NCBI RefSeq assembly: GCF_017948245.1
Contig: NZ_CP072865.1
Coordinates: 3,745,501 to 3,809,500, forward strand
Direction of reading: 5' to 3'
Source of the DNA: Rhizobium sp. NLR16a
Lineage (GTDB): Bacteria; Pseudomonadota; Alphaproteobacteria; Rhizobiales; Rhizobiaceae
Length of the DNA: 64,000 nt
Shown here: positions 5,215 to 33,994 of the stretch, one piece after another
How the letters are laid out: the number at the start of each line of letters is the position of its first letter
How positions within the stretch are numbered: the stretch's first letter is position 1
Notes under the pieces: generated by a model
What the model saw: only the letters and a program-made list of their open reading frames with translations
The model's database searches: none
Told to the model about the DNA's origin: nothing
Translations under genes and position numbers: made by a program

Positions 5215-6356
5215 GCGACTTTACGACGAAGCCGGCGACAGACGCCAAGGACTCCGAATCATCATCTTCTTCGGATGAGGTAGGCAGTAGTAGTCGGCCA
5301 TCCGGCCGATCCCAATCCTTCTGGTCGCGCGCCGCCCGCATTCTCCGCCCGCAGCAGGGCTCGCGACTGCGCGAGGATCTTGCCGACGCGCTGATGACCG
5401 ATGCGGCCGGCGACGACGCTTTTTCGCCCGACGAACGGGCGATGCTGCACAATATCCTGCGCTTTCGCGAGGTGCGCGTCGCCGACGTGATGGTGCCGCG
5501 CGCCGATATCGAGGCGGTGGACCAAAATATCACCATCGGCGAACTGATGATCCTTTTCGAGGAATCCGGCCGCTCGCGCATGCCTGTTTATGCCGATACG
5601 CTCGACGACCCGCGCGGCATGGTGCATATCCGCGACCTGCTCTCCTATGTCGCCAAGCAGGCGCGCAACAAGCGCCGCGGCCCGGCAAAGCCGGCCGCTG
5701 CAGCGCCGGCGATCGACGTCGCGCCGGAGAACATCCAGAAGCCGCCGCGCTCGACCAAGCCGAATTTCGATCTTGCCCGGGTCGACCTGCAGAAGACGCT
5801 GGCCGAGGCCGGCATCATCCGCAAGATCCTGTTCGTGCCGCCGTCGATGCTGGCCTCCGACCTGCTGCGCCGGATGCAGGTGAACCGTACGCAAATGGCG
5901 CTCGTCATCGACGAGTATGGCGGCACCGACGGGCTCGCCTCCCATGAGGACATCGTCGAAATGGTGGTCGGCGACATCGACGACGAACATGACGACGAAG
6001 AGGTGATGTTTAAGCGCGTTGCCGAAGACGTTTTCGTCGCCGACGCCCGTGTCGAACTGGAAGAGATCGCCGAAGCGATCGGACCGGATTTCGACATCAG
6101 CGAACAGGTCGACGAAGTCGACACGCTGGGCGGGCTGATCTTCTCCGCGCTCGGCCGCATCCCCGTTCGCGGCGAAGTGGTCCAGGCTCTGCCGAACTTC
6201 GAATTCCATATTCTCGACGCCGATCCGCGCCGCATCAAGCGGCTGCGCATCACCCGCAAGCGCCACGCGATCCGCCGCCGCGCCAAAGAGGCTGGCGACA
6301 TCACGCCGGGATCCGAGACCGGCGACGACCGGCCGGCCGAATCGACCACCAACTAG
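5211..6356 (+). CDS. CorC/HlyC-family CBS-domain protein (hemolysin-like)
   Basis: This 381-residue protein has two CBS domains (about residues 85-150 and 205-265, including [10 protein letters not shown] and [14 protein letters not shown]). They are followed by a CorC_HlyC transporter-associated domain with [20 protein letters not shown]. No membrane-spanning DUF21 segment is present, so it resembles soluble CorC (magnesium/cobalt efflux support) rather than integral YtfL-type proteins. The linker between the CBS domains is rich in Lys, Ala and Pro. It overlaps ybeY by ATGA. The ybeY-corC-lnt order is shared with many Proteobacteria. True haemolysin activity is not implied. Confidence 0.88.
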
Positions 6357-26400: not shown

Positions 26401-26488
26401 CCATTCCGATAACATGCTGTGTTCGGCATTTAGGATATCCCATGTGACGGAGGGCTGGCTTAGTCTCGCAGTTTAGGAGATACGGCAC

Positions 26489-28066
26489 ATGCAGCACGAA
26501 CGCCTTGGCATCGAACTTTCCGGACGACCGCTCGGTTTTGCCGAGATGGTGACGATTGGTGCCGGCAAGGCGAGGATTTCGGCTTCACCGACCGGCATGG
26601 CCCGCATCGCGATTGCGCGCGAGATCGTCGAGGACGCGATTGCTTCAGGCACGCCCGTTTACGGATCGACGACCGGCGTCGGCGCCATGAAGGACGTGGA
26701 GTGGTCGGCCGACGAACTCGACACCTTCAATCTCGGCCTGGTGCGTGCCCATCACTTCGGCACCGGCACACCCTTTTCCTGCAATGTGGTGCGCAACGCC
26801 ATGGCCATCCGCGTCAACACGGCGCTGACCGGCCAGGTCGGCTGCACGCCGGAGCTGATCGAGGCCTATATCAGAATGCTCGAGGCCGATCTCATCCCAG
26901 TCGTGCGCCGCACCGGCTCGATCGGCTGCGCCGATATCGGCCTGATGGGACAGATCGGCGCGGTGTTGACCGGCGTCGGCGAAGCAGTCTACCGCGGCAG
27001 CCGGATGCAGGCGGCCGACGCTTTCCGGGCAGCGGGGATAGAACCGGTGCGGATGGCGCCGCGCGACAGCCTCGCTTCGCTGAGCGTCAATGCGGTGAGC
27101 TTTGCGGCGGCAGCGGAAACGACGCGCAATGCCGCGGCCTCGATCCGCATCCTGCTCGCCACCGGGATGATGGCGGCCGGCGCGCTCGGCGCCTCCCGCG
27201 ATCCATGGAAGGCAGTGCGCCATGTCGGCACAGCGCGCGAGGCGCTGATCGGCGCCTGGCTCTGCAACGCCTCGGACGAATGGGACTGGCCGGTTGCAAC
27301 GCATGTGCAGGATCCGCTCAGCCTGCGCATGATCGCCCAGGTGTTCGGCGCCGTCATCGAAAATCTGCTTTCGACCGGTCACAAGATCCTTGCCGCCACC
27401 GGACGCTCGGACGACAATCCTGTCGTCGTCGAGGGCCGGGTGATGACATCAGGCGGTTCGCTTCCGCTCGATGTGACGATCCTGCTCGAATCGGCCGCAC
27501 TCTGTATGGCGCATGCGGCGCGCAACGCCTTCAACCGCTGCGTCATTCTCGGCAACGGCCAGCGGCGCGACCTCCCGGTCAACCTCGTGCCGCCGGGACG
27601 GATTGCCACCGGCTTCGGGCCGATCATCAAGCTTGCCGGCGAAATCTTCTCGCGTGTCCTGTCGATGTCCGGTCCCGTTTCGGCGCAGTCGCTGGTCGTT
27701 GCGGCCGGCCTGGAGGACGAGGCCGCCTTCCTGCCGCTGGTCATCGAGCGTTTCGAGCGGCAGATGCAGGCGCTGAAGCGCCTCGCCGCTCTCGAGGCGC
27801 TCTTGTCTGCCCAGGCGATCGACATTCTCGGCGATGAACCGAAGGGTGTGGCCGGCATGCTCTTTGAGGTCGTGCGCAAACATGCGGCTTTTTACACCGT
27901 CGACCGGCCGCTTTCAGCTGAGGTGGAGGCGATCGAGGAAGAGCTCGGATCGGACGATTTTCTCGCGAAGCTGACCGAGCAGGTTCCGATCGCCTCCTTC
28001 GACGATTTCTTCGCTCTCGGTTCGCCGGAGCCCATCGAAGGGCGCCTGGCCAGCCGAGCAGGATGA
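26489..28066 (+). CDS. histidine ammonia-lyase homologue lacking the MIO triad, probable ergothionase
   Basis: This 525-residue protein has the aromatic-amino-acid lyase fold: VYGSTTGVGAMKDVEW corresponds to the YGxNTGFG loop, and it retains LVRAHHFGTG and a helical core. Where true histidine lyases have GSVGASGDLAP, this protein reads GSIGCADIG (Gly143-Asp149). It is one residue shorter and has no Ala-Ser-Gly, so the MIO electrophile is unlikely to form. Ergothionase is such a homologue. It eliminates trimethylamine from ergothioneine to give thiourocanate, using acid/base catalysis. The four other pathway enzymes are encoded just downstream. It has a good ribosome site (GGAG at about -11) and is first in the operon. 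Confidence 0.8.
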   Translation: MQHERLGIELSGRPLGFAEMVTIGAGKARISASPTGMARIAIAREIVEDAIASGTPVYGSTTGVGAMKDVEWSADELDTFNLGLVRAHHFGTGTPFSCNVVRNAMAIRVNTALTGQVGCTPELIEAYIRMLEADLIPVVRRTGSIGCADIGLMGQIGAVLTGVGEAVYRGSRMQAADAFRAAGIEPVRMAPRDSLASLSVNAVSFAAAAETTRNAAASIRILLATGMMAAGALGASRDPWKAVRHVGTAREALIGAWLCNASDEWDWPVATHVQDPLSLRMIAQVFGAVIENLLSTGHKILAATGRSDDNPVVVEGRVMTSGGSLPLDVTILLESAALCMAHAARNAFNRCVILGNGQRRDLPVNLVPPGRIATGFGPIIKLAGEIFSRVLSMSGPVSAQSLVVAAGLEDEAAFLPLVIERFERQMQALKRLAALEALLSAQAIDILGDEPKGVAGMLFEVVRKHAAFYTVDRPLSAEVEAIEEELGSDDFLAKLTEQVPIASFDDFFALGSPEPIEGRLASRAG

Positions 28067-28197
28067 TTGTGGGCCGAGGCCCAAAATCTCAATCCTGCTC
28101 TACATTAACCGGTGCGTGATCCATCCGAAAGGCGTTCAAGCCTTGGCATCATGCTCCAGCCGGCAACGGTTCCGACGTCAGTCTAGGAGGAAGCGGC

Positions 28198-29577
28198 ATG
28201 GACTTCGATCTCGTTCTGCAGGGCACGGTGGTGCTGCCGGACCGCATCGTCGAAGCGGGTTATGTCGCCGTGTACGCCGGCAAGATCGCCGAAGTCGGCC
28301 TCGGCGTGCCGCCCGCGGCGCGCGAACGGCATCTGCTCGGAAGAGCGCTGATCCTGCCCGGCGCCATCGATGCGCAGGTGCATTCGCTGTCCCAGAAGGA
28401 TCAGGAGGATTTCGTCTGGTCGACGCGGTCGGCAGCGGCCGGCGGCGTGACCACGATCGTCGACATGCCTTATGACGAGGGCAATCTCGTCTGCTCGGCG
28501 GCGGCGGTCAAGCGAAAGATCGACCATGCCGCCCCGCAGGCGCGTGTCGATTTCGCGCTTTACGGCACCATCGATCCGCAAGAAGGCCCGGCGCGAATCC
28601 CGGAGATGGTCGAGGCCGGCGTCGCCGCCTTCAAGTTTTCGACCTTCGGTACCGATCCCAGACGATTTCCGCGCATTCCGCCTGCCCTGCTCGAGGCCTG
28701 CTTCGCGGCAATCGCGCCGACTGGGCTGACGGCAGGCGTGCATAATGAGGATGACGAGGCCGTGCGCAGCTATATGGAGCAGGTGAAGGCAAGCGGCATC
28801 ACCGACTGGCGGGCGCACGGCCTGTCTCGGCCGGCGATTACCGAGCTCCTGGCGATGCACACGATCTTCGAGACCGGGGCCGATACCGGCTGCCCCGCAC
28901 ATGTGGTGCACTGCTCGCTCGGGCGCGGCTATGACATCGCACGCGCCTACCGCCGCGACGGTTTTGCCGCGACTGTCGAGTGCTGCATCCATTACCTGAC
29001 GCTGGACGAGGAAAACGACGTGAGGCGCCTCGGCGGCAAGGCGAAGATCAATCCGCCGGTTCGGCCGCGCGCCGAAGTGGAGCGGCTCTGGCGGAAAGTG
29101 GCCGAGGGCGACGTCTGGCTGGTCTCGACCGATCACGTCAGCTGGTCGGAGAACCGCAAGACCAACCCCGACATGCTCGCCAATGCATCCGGTGTTCCCG
29201 GCCTCGAGGTTATGGTGCCGCTATTCGTCAAAGGCGCTCTCGAGCGCGGCATTCCCCTGACCTGGGCGGCGCGGCTGATGGCGGAGAATCCGGCGAAACA
29301 TTTCCGGCTCGACCACATCAAGGGGGCGCTGACACCAGGCAAGGACGCCGACATTACCGTGCTGGAGCCGCGCGAAAGCACCTATGATGCGGCTGCGAGC
29401 GGCAACAACGTCGTCGACTGGAGCCCGTATAATGGCATTCGCCTGCCCTGGACCGTCTCCGCCACCTATCTGCGCGGCGAAAGGATCGCCGAGGGCGGCA
29501 AGGTGCTGGCCGCGCCCGGCACCGGCCGATTCGTCCGGCCGCCGTCGCGCCAGGTCATTTCGGGAGCAGCCGCATGA
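28198..29577 (+). CDS. hydantoinase/dihydropyrimidinase-family amidohydrolase, probable hydantoin-5-propionate hydrolase
   Basis: This 459-residue cyclic amidohydrolase would open the hydantoin ring to N-carbamoyl-glutamate, the fourth step of ergothioneine breakdown. TRSAAAGGVTTIVDMP, carbamylated-lysine candidate K146 (AAFKFSTFG), CPAHVVHCS and STDHVSWS follow the allantoinase/hydantoinase pattern. The first metal motif is unusual: DAQVHS, so the first His of HxH is Gln60. The start has a strong AGGAGG. It ends in an ATGA overlap with the next gene, indicating coupling to the carbamoyl hydrolase, as in hydantoin and uracil catabolism. Confidence 0.82.
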   Translation: MDFDLVLQGTVVLPDRIVEAGYVAVYAGKIAEVGLGVPPAARERHLLGRALILPGAIDAQVHSLSQKDQEDFVWSTRSAAAGGVTTIVDMPYDEGNLVCSAAAVKRKIDHAAPQARVDFALYGTIDPQEGPARIPEMVEAGVAAFKFSTFGTDPRRFPRIPPALLEACFAAIAPTGLTAGVHNEDDEAVRSYMEQVKASGITDWRAHGLSRPAITELLAMHTIFETGADTGCPAHVVHCSLGRGYDIARAYRRDGFAATVECCIHYLTLDEENDVRRLGGKAKINPPVRPRAEVERLWRKVAEGDVWLVSTDHVSWSENRKTNPDMLANASGVPGLEVMVPLFVKGALERGIPLTWAARLMAENPAKHFRLDHIKGALTPGKDADITVLEPRESTYDAAASGNNVVDWSPYNGIRLPWTVSATYLRGERIAEGGKVLAAPGTGRFVRPPSRQVISGAAA

Positions 29578-30854
29578 GCCGCAATCTTCCCGTGAATGCC
29601 GGCCGGATCGCTGAAGATATTGAGGCGCTTGCCGATATTACCGAGCCGGCGCGCGCCTGGACACGGCGGGCTTTCACGCCGGTCTTTCTGGAAGGCCGGG
29701 CCTATATCGAGGCGCGGATGAAGGCGGCAGGGCTGGAAACGCGGATCGATGCCGCCGGCAATCTGATCGGCCGGCGCACCGGCAGGAAACCCTGGCTCGG
29801 CACGATCATGCTTGGCTCGCATTCCGACACGGTGCCGGACGGCGGCCGCTTCGACGGCATTGCCGGCGTGGTCTCGGCGCTTGAGGTGGCGCGGGCGCTT
29901 CGTGACCACGGCATGGAACTGGACCACGATCTCGAGATCATCGATTTTCTTGCCGAGGAGGTCAGCATCTTCGGTGTCTCCTGCATCGGCAGCCGCGGCA
30001 TGACCGGGCAATTGCCGGAAGCCTGGCTGTCGCGGGCAAGCGGCGGCCTCGATCTTGCCGGCGGCATCGCCCAGGTGGGCGGCGAGCCTGGCGTGCTGGG
30101 ACGGCAGAAGCGGCCCGATTTGGCAGGCTTCCTGGAGCTCCATATCGAGCAGGGGCCGGTGCTCGAAGCCGAAAGGGAGGATATCGGCATCGTCACCGCA
30201 ATATCGGGCATCACCCGTATCGAGATCACCATCGAGGGGCGGGCCGACCACGCCGGCACGACGCCGATGGACAGGCGGGCGGATGCGCTGGTCGCGGCTT
30301 CGGAGCTGGTGCTCGACATCCGCAACGCCGCCGCCGAGCTTGCCAGAACGCCGGGACATTTCGCGGCGACAGTTGGCGAGTTCAGGATCGAGCCGAATGC
30401 GGCCAATGTCGTGCCCTCCAAGGTCGTGCTGCTGATCGACGGGCGCGCGGAAATCCGCGCAGATATGGAGGCCTTCTGCCGCTGGCTCGACGGCCATGTC
30501 GAAAAGCTGGCGACCGCTTACGGCGTGACGATCGAGGCGCCGAATCGGGTTTCCGACAATCTGCCGACGCCCAGCGATGCCGCGCTGCTTTCGACGCTGG
30601 AGGCCGCCTGCGAACGCGTCGGCGCAAAATACCGGCGCATGGCCTCCGGCGCAGGGCACGATACCGCCTGGATCGCCAAGGTGGCACCGGCAGCAATGAT
30701 CTTCGTGCCCTGCCGGGGAGGTCGCAGCCACTGCCCCGACGAATGGGCCGACAATGACGATATCGCGCTCGGCGCAGCCGTGCTTTTCCAAGCGGTGCGC
30801 GAGATGGACAAGGATTCGAAGCGGGAGAAGGCCGATGGGACGCATACTGGTTGA
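29574..30854 (+). CDS. M20-family N-carbamoyl-amino-acid amidohydrolase, probable N-carbamoyl-glutamate hydrolase
   Basis: This 426-residue member of the HyuC/beta-ureidopropionase/allantoate amidohydrolase group would release glutamate, CO2 and ammonia. Metal-binding motifs are LGSHSDTVPDGGRFDGIAGV (His, Asp), DFLAEEVSIFGVSC (Glu-Glu) and LELHIEQGPVLE (His), with the last ligand in GGRSHCPDEW. The lid-domain motif GRADHAGTTPMD is also present. It starts inside the hydantoinase stop codon and its end overlaps the next gene by 20 bases, so the operon is tightly packed. Confidence 0.87.
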   Translation: MSRNLPVNAGRIAEDIEALADITEPARAWTRRAFTPVFLEGRAYIEARMKAAGLETRIDAAGNLIGRRTGRKPWLGTIMLGSHSDTVPDGGRFDGIAGVVSALEVARALRDHGMELDHDLEIIDFLAEEVSIFGVSCIGSRGMTGQLPEAWLSRASGGLDLAGGIAQVGGEPGVLGRQKRPDLAGFLELHIEQGPVLEAEREDIGIVTAISGITRIEITIEGRADHAGTTPMDRRADALVAASELVLDIRNAAAELARTPGHFAATVGEFRIEPNAANVVPSKVVLLIDGRAEIRADMEAFCRWLDGHVEKLATAYGVTIEAPNRVSDNLPTPSDAALLSTLEAACERVGAKYRRMASGAGHDTAWIAKVAPAAMIFVPCRGGRSHCPDEWADNDDIALGAAVLFQAVREMDKDSKREKADGTHTG

Positions 30855-31932
30855 GAAGGATGTCGAAGCCGCCGTCAAAGGCGGCTCCGTCTATGCCGCC
30901 GGCGGCGGCGGCTGGGCCGATCACGGGCGGATGCTTGGGCTTGCGGCCGTCACCATCGGCAAACCGGAGTTGGTATCGGTCGACGAATTGAAGGATGACG
31001 ACTGGATCGCCACTGCGGCCGCGATCGGCGCGCCGGCCTCCACGACGCCCTGGGAAATGCAGGGCGTCGATTATGTGAAGGCGGTGCAATTGCTGCAGGA
31101 GGCGCTCGGCGAAAGGCTCTCCGGGCTGATCATCGGCCAGAACGGCAAATCCTCGACGCTGAACGGCTGGCTGCCGTCGGCGATCCTCGGCACCAAGGTG
31201 GTCGATGCCGTCGGCGATATCCGCGCCCACCCGACCGGCGACATGGGCTCGATCGGCATGGCCGCCTCACCCGAGCCGATGATCCAGACCGCCGTCGGCG
31301 GCAACAGGGCCGAAAACCGTTACATCGAGCTGGTGGTGAAGGGCGCGACGGCAAAGATCTCGCCGGTGTTGCGCGCCGCCGCCGATCAGTCCGGCGGTTT
31401 CATCGCCAGCTGCCGCAATCCGCTCCGGGCCTCCTATATCAGGGCGCATGCGGCCCTCGGCGGCATCTCGATGGCGCTTGCGCTCGGAGAAGCGATCATT
31501 GCGGCGGAGAAGCGGGGCGGGCCAGCGGTCATCGATGCGATCTGCAGGACGACGGGCGGGCATGTCCTCGCCGAAGGCGTCATCAGCCGGAAGGACGTCG
31601 TCTATACCAAGGAAGCCTTCGATATCGGCACCATCGCCGTCGGCTCGGGTGATAAATCGGTGACGCTGCATGTGATGAACGAATATATGGCCGTGGACGA
31701 TGCGGGCGGCGGGCGGCTTGCGACCTTCCCCGCCGTGATCACTACGCTGTCGTCTGAGGGCGAGCCGCTGAGCGTCGGGCAGTTGCAGGAAGGCATGCAT
31801 GTCTTCATCCTGCATGTGCCGATGGATATCATTCCGCTGTCGGCTAGCGTGCTCGATCCGACAGTTTATCCCGTCGTCGAAAAGGCTATGGGAATCGAGA
31901 TCGCGCGTTATGCACTGGCGGCGAAGGCCTGA
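30835..31932 (+). CDS. DUF917 protein, probable thiohydantoin desulfurase of ergothioneine catabolism
   Basis: This 365-residue member of the DUF917 (S-methyl thiohydantoin desulfurase) family has an N-terminal glycine-rich AAGGGGWADHGRML. The central block DAVGDIRAHPTGDMGSIGM and the end HVFILHVPMDIIPLSASVLDP are also present. In the reconstituted ergothioneine pathway a new enzyme type replaces the sulfur of 5-oxo-2-thioxo-imidazolidine propionate by oxygen, linking the urocanase-like and hydantoinase-like steps. This gene is the natural candidate. ATG 30835 overlaps the carbamoyl hydrolase by 20 bases. Confidence 0.8.
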   Translation: MGRILVEKDVEAAVKGGSVYAAGGGGWADHGRMLGLAAVTIGKPELVSVDELKDDDWIATAAAIGAPASTTPWEMQGVDYVKAVQLLQEALGERLSGLIIGQNGKSSTLNGWLPSAILGTKVVDAVGDIRAHPTGDMGSIGMAASPEPMIQTAVGGNRAENRYIELVVKGATAKISPVLRAAADQSGGFIASCRNPLRASYIRAHAALGGISMALALGEAIIAAEKRGGPAVIDAICRTTGGHVLAEGVISRKDVVYTKEAFDIGTIAVGSGDKSVTLHVMNEYMAVDDAGGGRLATFPAVITTLSSEGEPLSVGQLQEGMHVFILHVPMDIIPLSASVLDPTVYPVVEKAMGIEIARYALAAKA

Positions 31933-31935
31933 GCC

Positions 31936-32265
31936 ATGGCACGCGATCCCGGCCTTGAAGAACTGCTGCGTGAGGAACTCGGCGATCGTCCTGGCCTCAG
32001 CGAAAAATCCATGTTCGGCGGCCGCGCCTTCCTGCTGAACGGCAATCTTCTCTGCGGCGCGCGCAGTGACGGCATGTTGATCCGTCTCGGCAAGGGCAAT
32101 GATGATTGGGCGCTGGCGCTGCCCGGCGTAATCCGGATGCTGATGGGCGAGCGGGTCATGCACGGCTGGCTGCGCGCCTCCGCCGAGGCTTACGGCGACG
32201 ATGCCCTGAGACGGCGTCTGCTCGATGCGGCGCTTGCCTATGTGGAATCGCTGCCGGGCAAGTGA
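31936..32265 (+). CDS. TfoX/Sxy N-terminal-domain protein
   Basis: This 109-residue protein consists only of a TfoX_N domain (SEKSMFGGRAFLLNGNLLCGARSDGMLIRLG). It lacks the C-terminal domain of the competence regulator Sxy. Stand-alone TfoX_N proteins are common in soil bacteria and of unknown function. It starts three bases after the desulfurase stop and precedes thiourocanate hydratase, inside the operon. It may be a bystander, or it may have a role in the pathway that has not been described. Confidence 0.82.
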   Translation: MARDPGLEELLREELGDRPGLSEKSMFGGRAFLLNGNLLCGARSDGMLIRLGKGNDDWALALPGVIRMLMGERVMHGWLRASAEAYGDDALRRRLLDAALAYVESLPGK

Positions 32266-32278
32266 CCAATTAGCTTCC

Positions 32279-32301
32279 CCTTCTCCCCAGCGGGGAGAAG
32301 G
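32279..32301. repeat. intergenic hairpin repeat
   Basis: CCTTCTCCCC (32279-32288) and GGGGAGAAGG (32292-32301) form a perfect 10-bp stem with an AGC loop. No T-run follows, so it is not a typical terminator. Similar CTTCTCCCC-type hairpins are frequent between rhizobial genes. It may moderate expression inside the operon. Confidence 0.55.
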
Positions 32302-32332
32302 AAAAAGCAGAGAACCAAGCGAGGAACCCGTG

Positions 32333-33994
32333 ATGCCGAAGGCCAATCCACGCCATCCGAAATTTCCAATTCCCGGCGGACCGGAGTTGCGTGCCAAGGG
32401 CTGGCGACAGGAGGCGCTGCTGCGGCTCCTCGAAAACGTGCTCGCCGTCGGCGAGGATCCCGACAATCTGATCGTCTATGCCGCGCTCGGCAAGGCAGCG
32501 CGCAACTGGCCGGCGCACAAGGGCATCGTCAAGGCGCTGACGGAGATGGATGAGGACCAGACGCTGCTCATCCAGTCAGGCAAGCCGATCGGGGTCGTAA
32601 AGACCCATGCAAAGGCGCCGCTCGTCATCATGGCGAACTGCAACATCGTCGGGCAATGGGCAAAGGCCGAAGTGTTCTACGAGCTGCAGCGCAAAGGGCT
32701 GATCTGCTGGGGCGGGCTGACGGCCGGCGCCTGGCAATATATCGGCAGTCAGGGCGTCATCCAGGGTACTTACGAGATTTTCATGCGCATCGCCGAACGC
32801 CGCTTCGGCGGTGATCTCCATGGCCGATTCGTGCTGACGGCCGGCCTCGGCGGCATGGGCGGGGCGCAGCCGCTCGCCGGCCGCATGGCAGGCGCGGCGA
32901 TCCTCTGCGTCGACATCGATCCGGAGCGGGCGCGAAAACGCCAGCAGATCGGCTATCTCCAGAAAATCGCTCCCGATCTCGATACCGCGCTTGAAATGAT
33001 CGATGCGGCGGCGAAGGAGAAGCGGGCGCTGTCCGTCGGCCTCGTCGGCAATGCGGCGGAGGTTTATCCCGAGATCGCTCGGCGCGGCATCGTGCCCGAT
33101 ATCGTCACCGATCAGACCTCGGCGCATGACCTCGTCTATGGCTACGTACCGAAGGGCATGAGCCTTGATCAGGTCAGAGGCCTGCGCGACGACGGCCAGG
33201 GGCAATTGATGGCGGCAAGCCGCGCCTCGATCGTTGATCATGTCACCGCGATGCTGGAGTTCCAGAAGAAGGGCTCCGAAGTCTTCGACAATGGCAACCT
33301 CATCCGCACGCAGGCGAAAGAGGGCGGTGTCGCCAACGCCTTCGATATTCCGATCTTCACCGAGGCCTATCTCAGGCCGCTCTTTGCCCGGGCGATCGGG
33401 CCGTTCCGCTGGATGGCGCTGTCGGGCGAGGAGAGCGATATCGCCCGGATTGACGACCTGCTCATCGAGATGTTTCCCGACAACAAGATCATCACCAATT
33501 GGATCCGGCTGGCGCGCGAGCACGTGCCCTTCGAGGGGCTGCCGGCACGCATCGCCTGGCTCGGACATGGCGAACGTACGGCGCTTGCTCTTCGCGTCAA
33601 TGCGCTGGTGGCGAGCGGTGTGCTGAAAGGTCCCGTCGCCTTCTCCCGCGACCATCTCGATGCCGGCGCCATGGCGCATCCGAATATCATGACCGAGCGG
33701 ATGAAGGACGGGTCCGACGCGATCGCCGACTGGCCGCTGATCGATGCGATGATGCTCTGCTCCTCGATGGCCGATCTCGTCGTCGTCCATTCCGGCGGCG
33801 GCGGCTATGCCGGCTACATGACGAGCTGCGGCGTCACCGTGATCGCCGATGGCACCGATGCCGCCGAAGAACGGCTCGACCACGCGCTCACCAACGACAC
33901 GGCGCTCGGCGTGATGCGCTATGCCGATGCCGGATATGACGAGGCGCTTGATGAGGTGGCGAGGAAGGACGTGCCCTATCTCAGACTAGATTGA
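32333..33994 (+). CDS. urocanase homologue, probable thiourocanate hydratase
   Basis: This 553-residue protein has the urocanase NAD-binding core RFVLTAGLGGMGGAQPLAGRMAGAAILCVDID. A late glycine-rich segment VVHSGGGGYAGYMTSCGV differs from the usual histidine-pathway HutU ending. Urocanase adds water to urocanate using tightly bound NAD as electrophile. The thio-variant converts thiourocanate to the thiohydantoin acid precursor. Genes for imidazolonepropionase and formiminoglutamase are absent here, and the five ergothioneine-type enzymes are together, so the thio-substrate is preferred. ATG 32333 follows GAGGA; the longer open frame from 32225 reads through the hairpin repeat and is not used. 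Confidence 0.8.
   Translation: MPKANPRHPKFPIPGGPELRAKGWRQEALLRLLENVLAVGEDPDNLIVYAALGKAARNWPAHKGIVKALTEMDEDQTLLIQSGKPIGVVKTHAKAPLVIMANCNIVGQWAKAEVFYELQRKGLICWGGLTAGAWQYIGSQGVIQGTYEIFMRIAERRFGGDLHGRFVLTAGLGGMGGAQPLAGRMAGAAILCVDIDPERARKRQQIGYLQKIAPDLDTALEMIDAAAKEKRALSVGLVGNAAEVYPEIARRGIVPDIVTDQTSAHDLVYGYVPKGMSLDQVRGLRDDGQGQLMAASRASIVDHVTAMLEFQKKGSEVFDNGNLIRTQAKEGGVANAFDIPIFTEAYLRPLFARAIGPFRWMALSGEESDIARIDDLLIEMFPDNKIITNWIRLAREHVPFEGLPARIAWLGHGERTALALRVNALVASGVLKGPVAFSRDHLDAGAMAHPNIMTERMKDGSDAIADWPLIDAMMLCSSMADLVVVHSGGGGYAGYMTSCGVTVIADGTDAAEERLDHALTNDTALGVMRYADAGYDEALDEVARKDVPYLRLD

Follow-up and report, generated by a model that had tools for sequence, protein, structure and literature searches.

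Ergothioneine, an antioxidant of fungi and actinobacteria, is a betaine that is taken up by plants and animals. Its bacterial catabolism reportedly proceeds in five steps, as set out by Beliaeva, Leisinger and Seebeck in 2021, and the order of reactions given below follows that account. The closest described structures are those of the ergothionase of Treponema denticola (6S7J / 6S7Q) and the thiourocanate hydratase of Paenibacillus (7NED). For uptake, an excerpt of one paper describes EgtU/EgtV of Streptococcus pneumoniae as an ATP-binding cassette (ABC) transporter of ergothioneine (PMC9732360). According to a 2026 paper, definitive identifications of ergothionase are limited to a few microorganisms, and the search made in that study took no account of divergent homologues (PMC13405746). 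Here, a 64,000 nt stretch of the genome of Rhizobium sp. NLR16a (contig NZ_CP072865.1, positions 3,745,501 to 3,809,500; hereafter the window) was analysed. The window lies on C1, a 4.06 Mb contig of a 6.58 Mb genome that has Rhizobium esperanzae and R. aethiopicum as its nearest named relatives, and it carries six plus-strand genes at 26489–33994. This operon very likely encodes the five-step degradation of ergothioneine, forming the catabolic part of a split regulon that would also include a remote LysR-type regulator (ErtR) and an OsmF-type betaine transporter. Four of the five pathway enzymes scored above the curated NCBIfam equivalog cut-offs for ergothioneine utilisation, the regulator co-occurred with the operon, and one candidate operator sequence was found upstream of both the lyase gene and the transporter.

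The operon and its predicted enzymes

The initial annotation had described six consecutive plus-strand genes with three overlapping or nearly contiguous junctions, headed by a lyase lacking the 4-methylideneimidazole-5-one (MIO) triad, and had read them as a pathway from ergothioneine to glutamate. The six genes, their positions and their junctions were all as described, and the pathway reading gained support from the family scores of ErtB to ErtE, the grouping of the hydratase with 7NED and the position of the lyase outside the HutH clade. The labels ErtA, ErtB, ErtC and ErtR were coined in this analysis, while ErtD and ErtE are those of NCBIfam. The first gene (26489–28066) codes for ErtA, a probable ergothionase with the Lyase_aromatic domain (PF00221). 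It is followed by those for ErtD, a predicted hydantoin-5-propionate amidohydrolase (28198–29577; Amidohydro_1; NF058538, 781 bits, cut-off 600), ErtE, a predicted N-carbamoyl-L-glutamate amidohydrolase of the M20 type (29574–30854; Peptidase_M20; NF058540, 632 bits, cut-off 520), and ErtC, a predicted thiohydantoin desulfurase (DUF917 / S-Me-THD N+C; NF058529, 599 bits, cut-off 440). The likely start of ertC is at 30838, within a frame open from 30754, and the gene ends at 31932. A small protein with a TfoX_N domain (31936–32265; PF04993, 39.6 bits) comes next, and the last gene codes for ErtB, a urocanase homologue and predicted thiourocanate hydratase (Urocanase; NF058530, 1060 bits, cut-off 930), with its likely start at 32333, in a frame open from 32225, and its end at 33994. 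The ErtD/ErtE and ErtE/ErtC genes overlap by 4 and 17 bp, respectively, and 3 bp separate the ErtC and TfoX_N genes.

In the proposed pathway, the lyase would convert ergothioneine to thiourocanate and trimethylamine, the hydratase would turn thiourocanate into a thiohydantoin propionate, and the desulfurase would yield hydantoin-5-propionate and sulfide. ErtD would then open hydantoin-5-propionate to N-carbamoylglutamate, from which ErtE would release glutamate, CO2 and ammonia. EgtD, the methyltransferase of ergothioneine synthesis, was not found in a search of the genome, so the substrate would have to come from outside.

In the window lyase the Ala-Ser-Gly MIO triad is one residue shorter and altered (GSIGC-ADIG, compared with GSVGASGDL in presumed true HutH; the 'true HutH' rows of the alignment were assigned by us, and two HutH-like rows likewise lack the triad). 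In the same alignment, Tyr280 of histidine ammonia-lyase (HAL) was replaced by Leu. The hutH model gave 207 bits against a cut-off of 539, and the best Protein Data Bank (PDB) match, both by sequence and by fold, was the Treponema ergothionase 6S7J. A comparison of fixed alignment columns found 11 at which ErtA agreed with Treponema-type ergothionases and differed from HutH, none at which ErtA agreed with HutH against the Treponema type, and three at which the Treponema type and HutH agreed against ErtA. This pattern, whose 11 shared columns include the deleted MIO serine and window residue K381, favours kinship of ErtA with Treponema ergothionase over HutH. In a tree built without an outgroup, and in which long branches were flagged, ErtA formed a deep clade of its own (support 100/100) outside the HutH clade. 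The window lyase is probably a divergent ergothionase.

The hydratase was also placed apart from the histidine enzymes. It was 66% identical to Paenibacillus 7NED, compared with 49% to the HutU of its own genome, and no functional difference from 7NED was noticed. Thiourocanate hydratases are distinguished from HutU by 45 columns, and in 40 of these 7NED itself shows the thiourocanate hydratase state. When the hydratase model was run across 397 genomes of the order, 29 genomes exceeded the cut-off, all with at least 977 bits, while the urocanase group reached at most 720 bits; two incomplete matches fell in between. A 55-protein tree showed one fully supported split between 37 thiourocanate hydratases, including 7NED and the window protein, and 18 HutU proteins. 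Names in this tree were set by identity to the window protein, with 7NED as an independent point, and the window hydratase and the copy from its own genome were both counted among the 37.

These results bear on whether the operon serves ordinary or auxiliary histidine or urocanate use, its lyase and urocanase homologue being working paralogues of HutH and HutU. The proteins do belong to the same superfamilies, and the hutU model gave 696 bits for the window hydratase, above its cut-off of 375. However, neither protein clustered with HutH or HutU, so that the outcome named in the initial annotation as refuting its reading was not observed. The lyase also lacks the MIO triad and scored far below the hutH cut-off, and histidine use offers no role for a thiohydantoin desulfurase. 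Further, contig C3 of the same genome carries a complete hut locus (HutH 725 bits, HutU 970 bits), where HutI, HutF and HutG also exceeded their cut-offs in a profile search, indicating that histidine use is served elsewhere. The absence of imidazolonepropionase and formimidoylglutamate enzymes, cited in the initial annotation against ordinary histidine use, thus holds for the operon but not for the genome. We regard a role in histidine use as extremely improbable.

The hut locus itself contains a second HutH homologue (G000:C3 146662–148119; L188 15651–17144) that is also MIO-less (GSAGY---ITH) and has Leu in place of HAL Tyr280. In genome G275, a similar MIO-less protein is encoded next to true HutH and scored 546 bits, above the hutH cut-off.

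Alternatively, the operon might act on a derivative of ergothioneine (S-methyl-ergothioneine or ergothioneine sulfonate, for example) or on a thiohistidine betaine related to it. NCBIfam holds separate models for an S-methyl hydratase and desulfurase, the lyase lies in a clade of its own, and an excerpt of PMC13405746 cites an ergothioneine sulfonate pathway beside an Agrobacterium radiobacter ergothionase. The window hydratase and desulfurase, however, pass the thio models and fall below the S-methyl ones (739 bits, cut-off 880, for S-methyl thiourocanate hydratase; 277 bits, cut-off 450, for the desulfurase model NF058532), which leaves a modified substrate with a small chance of being the true one. 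Ergothioneine itself is the substrate preferred here.

Among the hydrolases, ErtE kept the four metal-ligand motifs inspected in 26 of 26 aligned sequences. In ErtD, the Lys, His, His and Asp metal motifs were kept, while the HxH motif of classical hydantoinases, which two PDB alignments made here agree with, was replaced by QxH: the first His was Gln (QVH or QTH, within residues 54–66) in all 27 ErtD sequences aligned. The metal centre of ErtD may differ from that of classical hydantoinases.

Distribution in Rhizobium and the empty site

The named loci compared were the top 80 among 393 relatives found, and all counts out of 80 refer to them. The genes for ErtD, ErtE, ErtC and ErtB were present in this order in 80/80 loci and the lyase gene in 79; in the remaining one (L092) no lyase gene was seen, and the contig ends nearby. 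The gene ubiB lay upstream of the operon in 76/80. Such recurrence of gene order indicates that the arrangement is not due to chance. The TfoX_N gene was matched in 72/80 loci, with its frame open in 70 of the 70 checked, and no homologue was found among the open reading frames called in 19 operon loci from across the order; for this gene, lying 3 bp downstream of that for the desulfurase, no pathway role is evident despite its frequency.

The desulfurase, used as the operon marker, exceeded its cut-off in 131 of 148 genomes of the genus, but in only six of 398 genomes across the phylum, four of which belong to this same genus. In the 17 marker-negative genomes, it was the one operon gene sought genome-wide. 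Fourteen of these 17 showed an empty site, with ubiB followed within ∼24–439 bp by relatives of the same flanking genes (MFS, LysR, SDR and, further on, coaBC), while three lacked the ubiB-MFS-LysR-SDR neighbourhood. Mapping of operon presence and absence on ubiB trees required four changes, both on a 94-row and on a 57-row tree, three of them forced by well-supported branches in the latter. The operon is a fixed but losable chromosomal block in Rhizobium, and genes very common in this genus most probably break down ergothioneine to glutamate.

Outside the named loci, some operons had no adjacent lyase gene (L250, L252, L253, L182 and L170). Those on Paracoccus aminophilus and Thalassospira plasmids lay near TRAP transporters, and those of Neorhizobium and G433 were accompanied by a polar-amino-acid ABC transporter; in G724, recognisable ErtD and ErtE were also missing. 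The best lyase match in G433 and G724 was true HutH, with a weaker second match in G724, while a search limited to plasmids detected other MIO-less homologues (27–28% identity) in Paracoccus, Thalassospira and Neorhizobium. Some carriers of lyase-less operons may depend on thiourocanate that other organisms release.

A remote regulator, a betaine transporter and a shared site

Of 19 other operon loci in the order, 13 have a four-gene betaine ABC transporter inside the operon, before the gene for ErtD and, where the available sequence extends far enough (a contig end truncates L181), behind that for the lyase. It consists of an OsmF-type binding protein (502 bits, cut-off 400), two permeases and a ProV-like ATPase. 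At this place the named Rhizobium loci have just 23–146 bp, and the window operon contains neither a transporter gene nor a LysR gene with tandem helix-turn-helix (HTH) domains. Homologues of both were found together elsewhere in the same genome, in divergent orientation, at G000:C1 3640303–3645787, ∼126 kb from the operon. In trees, the remote transporter and regulator homologues were separated from the operon-linked versions by one split each. LysR-type homologues of ∼350–440 aa adjoin operon genes in many loci, with Metarhizobium, Brucella pituitosa, Paracoccus, Thalassospira and Neorhizobium among the carriers. All three regulators scanned, namely the remote one (L236, 4304–5542) and those of L250 and L253, had two HTH_1 stretches plus PF03466.

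The regulator was detected (E value of 1e-30 or better) in 130 of the 148 genomes, corresponding to 130 of 131 operon-plus genomes and to none of the 17 operon-minus ones. It was present beside the transporter in the three operon-plus loci fetched for comparison. None of the 17 operon-minus transporter loci showed it there, although in one of these (L355) the contig ends too soon.

The sequence GTGTTCG-N8-GATATCCC was conserved in alignments of both the lyase upstream region and the intergenic region between regulator and transporter, with exact copies at 26419–26441 of the window, on the plus strand and 47 bp upstream of the lyase start codon, and at 5586–5608 of L236. With at most one mismatch, it was present in 76/80 named loci, once in each, on the same strand and 46–159 bp upstream of the lyase gene. 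Two of the four exceptions (L088 and L092) are contigs that end first; in the other two, L132 had three mismatches and L137 had no site. The site was found in the regulator-transporter intergenic region of 33/33 operon-plus transporter loci (31 genomes) and, allowing two mismatches, was absent from 17/17 operon-minus ones. All 15 upstream intervals from other genera contained it with up to three mismatches, whereas the remaining sequence of these loci gave an expectation of 0.26; in most other genera the operator core is GGGATATCCC. A control of 160,977 bases of hut-gene loci gave a single match at two mismatches or fewer, and none of seven regulator-less loci (L245–L248, L174, L177 and L187) had a site before the operon at up to three. 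From this pattern we infer that the tandem-HTH LysR protein binds GTGTTCG-N8-GATATCCC. A palindrome, CCTTCTCCCCAGCGGGGAGAAGG, lies at 32279–32301, in the gap upstream of the hydratase gene, and has no other match in the window within three mismatches.

ErtR would bind the site upstream of both the lyase gene and the transporter, activating operon and transporter when ergothioneine or thiourocanate is present, and ergothioneine might enter through the OsmF-type transporter. We judge it rather probable that the regulon is split in this manner, with a tandem-HTH LysR regulator, its operator, a core betaine transporter recruited as importer and a separate ergothionase lineage, operon and regulator being lost together while the transporter stays. 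On this reading, the ErtA lineage is an unrecognised one that carries the label histidine ammonia-lyase or aromatic amino acid lyase in databases.

Several observations weigh against these proposals. ErtA lies outside the clade to which the crystallised Treponema enzyme belongs (again in the unrooted tree with flagged long branches), so that the assignment of the lyase step rests on operon context and shared active-site changes. The operon-plus genome G110 had no detectable regulator, its assembly being 82% complete and in 1320 contigs. Co-loss amounts to three or four independent events, and the three independent pairs, all in one direction, gave p = 0.25 in a sign test; with so few events, the strength of the co-occurrence lies in its combination with the shared site. 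The pairing of the sites at regulator-transporter and lyase is, taken by itself, post hoc, as it was spotted by eye in two aligned regions. No site was found before the operon in Rhizobium L137, or in L170 and L173, which have regulator homologues of 27–28% identity. Finally, NCBIfam names the binding protein glycine-betaine-binding OsmF, and it was present in 147/148 genomes irrespective of the operon (G045 had only a weak match), so the transporter is not a dedicated importer.

Another explanation is that the remote LysR protein controls the betaine transporter alone, its link with the operon reflecting common ancestry of the operon-plus lineages. Its gene is divergent from the transporter, and the presence of the operon requires only four changes on the ubiB trees. 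Yet operon-minus genomes retain the transporter and have neither regulator nor site, an exact copy of the site lies upstream of the lyase gene 126 kb away, and homologous regulators directly flank the operon in other genera. Control of the transporter alone is unlikely, and the split regulon is preferred.

Comparison with known systems

The window lyase and Treponema denticola ergothionase share the HAL fold, the deletion of the MIO serine, 10 further fixed columns and the Leu at HAL Tyr280. They differ in overall sequence (∼26% identity), in having Cys-Ala-Asp (window) or Glu-Gly-Asp (Treponema) at the same place, and in clade; a lyase of Burkholderia arboris joins the Treponema one. This B. 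arboris enzyme (L249, 12017–13651) has a start that, read by eye, resembles a signal peptide, and its gene lies near desulfurase, hydratase and MFS genes and divergent ErtD/ErtE-like genes (42–43% identical); it is possibly a periplasmic ergothionase.

The operon-linked transporter of relatives belongs to the same broad betaine-transporter superfamily as EgtU/EgtV, and its binding protein matched EgtUC with an E value of 1.5e-25, a measure of overall similarity. This protein is, however, far closer to the betaine-binding 4ND9 (1.7e-141) and to OsmF 4WEP (2.8e-107). Further, permease and binding domain are fused in the S. pneumoniae system, while they are separate subunits in the operon-linked transporter.

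As a divergent lineage of probable ergothionases occurs in the majority of genomes of this important root-nodule genus, rhizobia would be a likely sink for ergothioneine, yielding trimethylamine and sulfide in soil and rhizosphere. The predicted regulator and operator offer a testable control switch for the pathway. A full-text literature search that covered few subscription papers returned no recognised report of a regulator of ergothioneine catabolism or of the pathway in Rhizobium.

Since NCBIfam already carries models for the ergothioneine pathway, the finding is one of a known kind. The operon has all five enzyme types of the scheme of Beliaeva et al., four of which pass the models for these steps. 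It differs in that its lyase belongs to a clade apart from the Treponema enzyme, and in that it lacks a transporter and regulator, includes an extra TfoX_N gene and occupies a fixed chromosomal site. What is new is that the lyase forms a lineage apart, together with the pattern of occurrence and empty sites across Rhizobium, the absence of transporter and regulator from the operon, and the remote regulator with its shared site.

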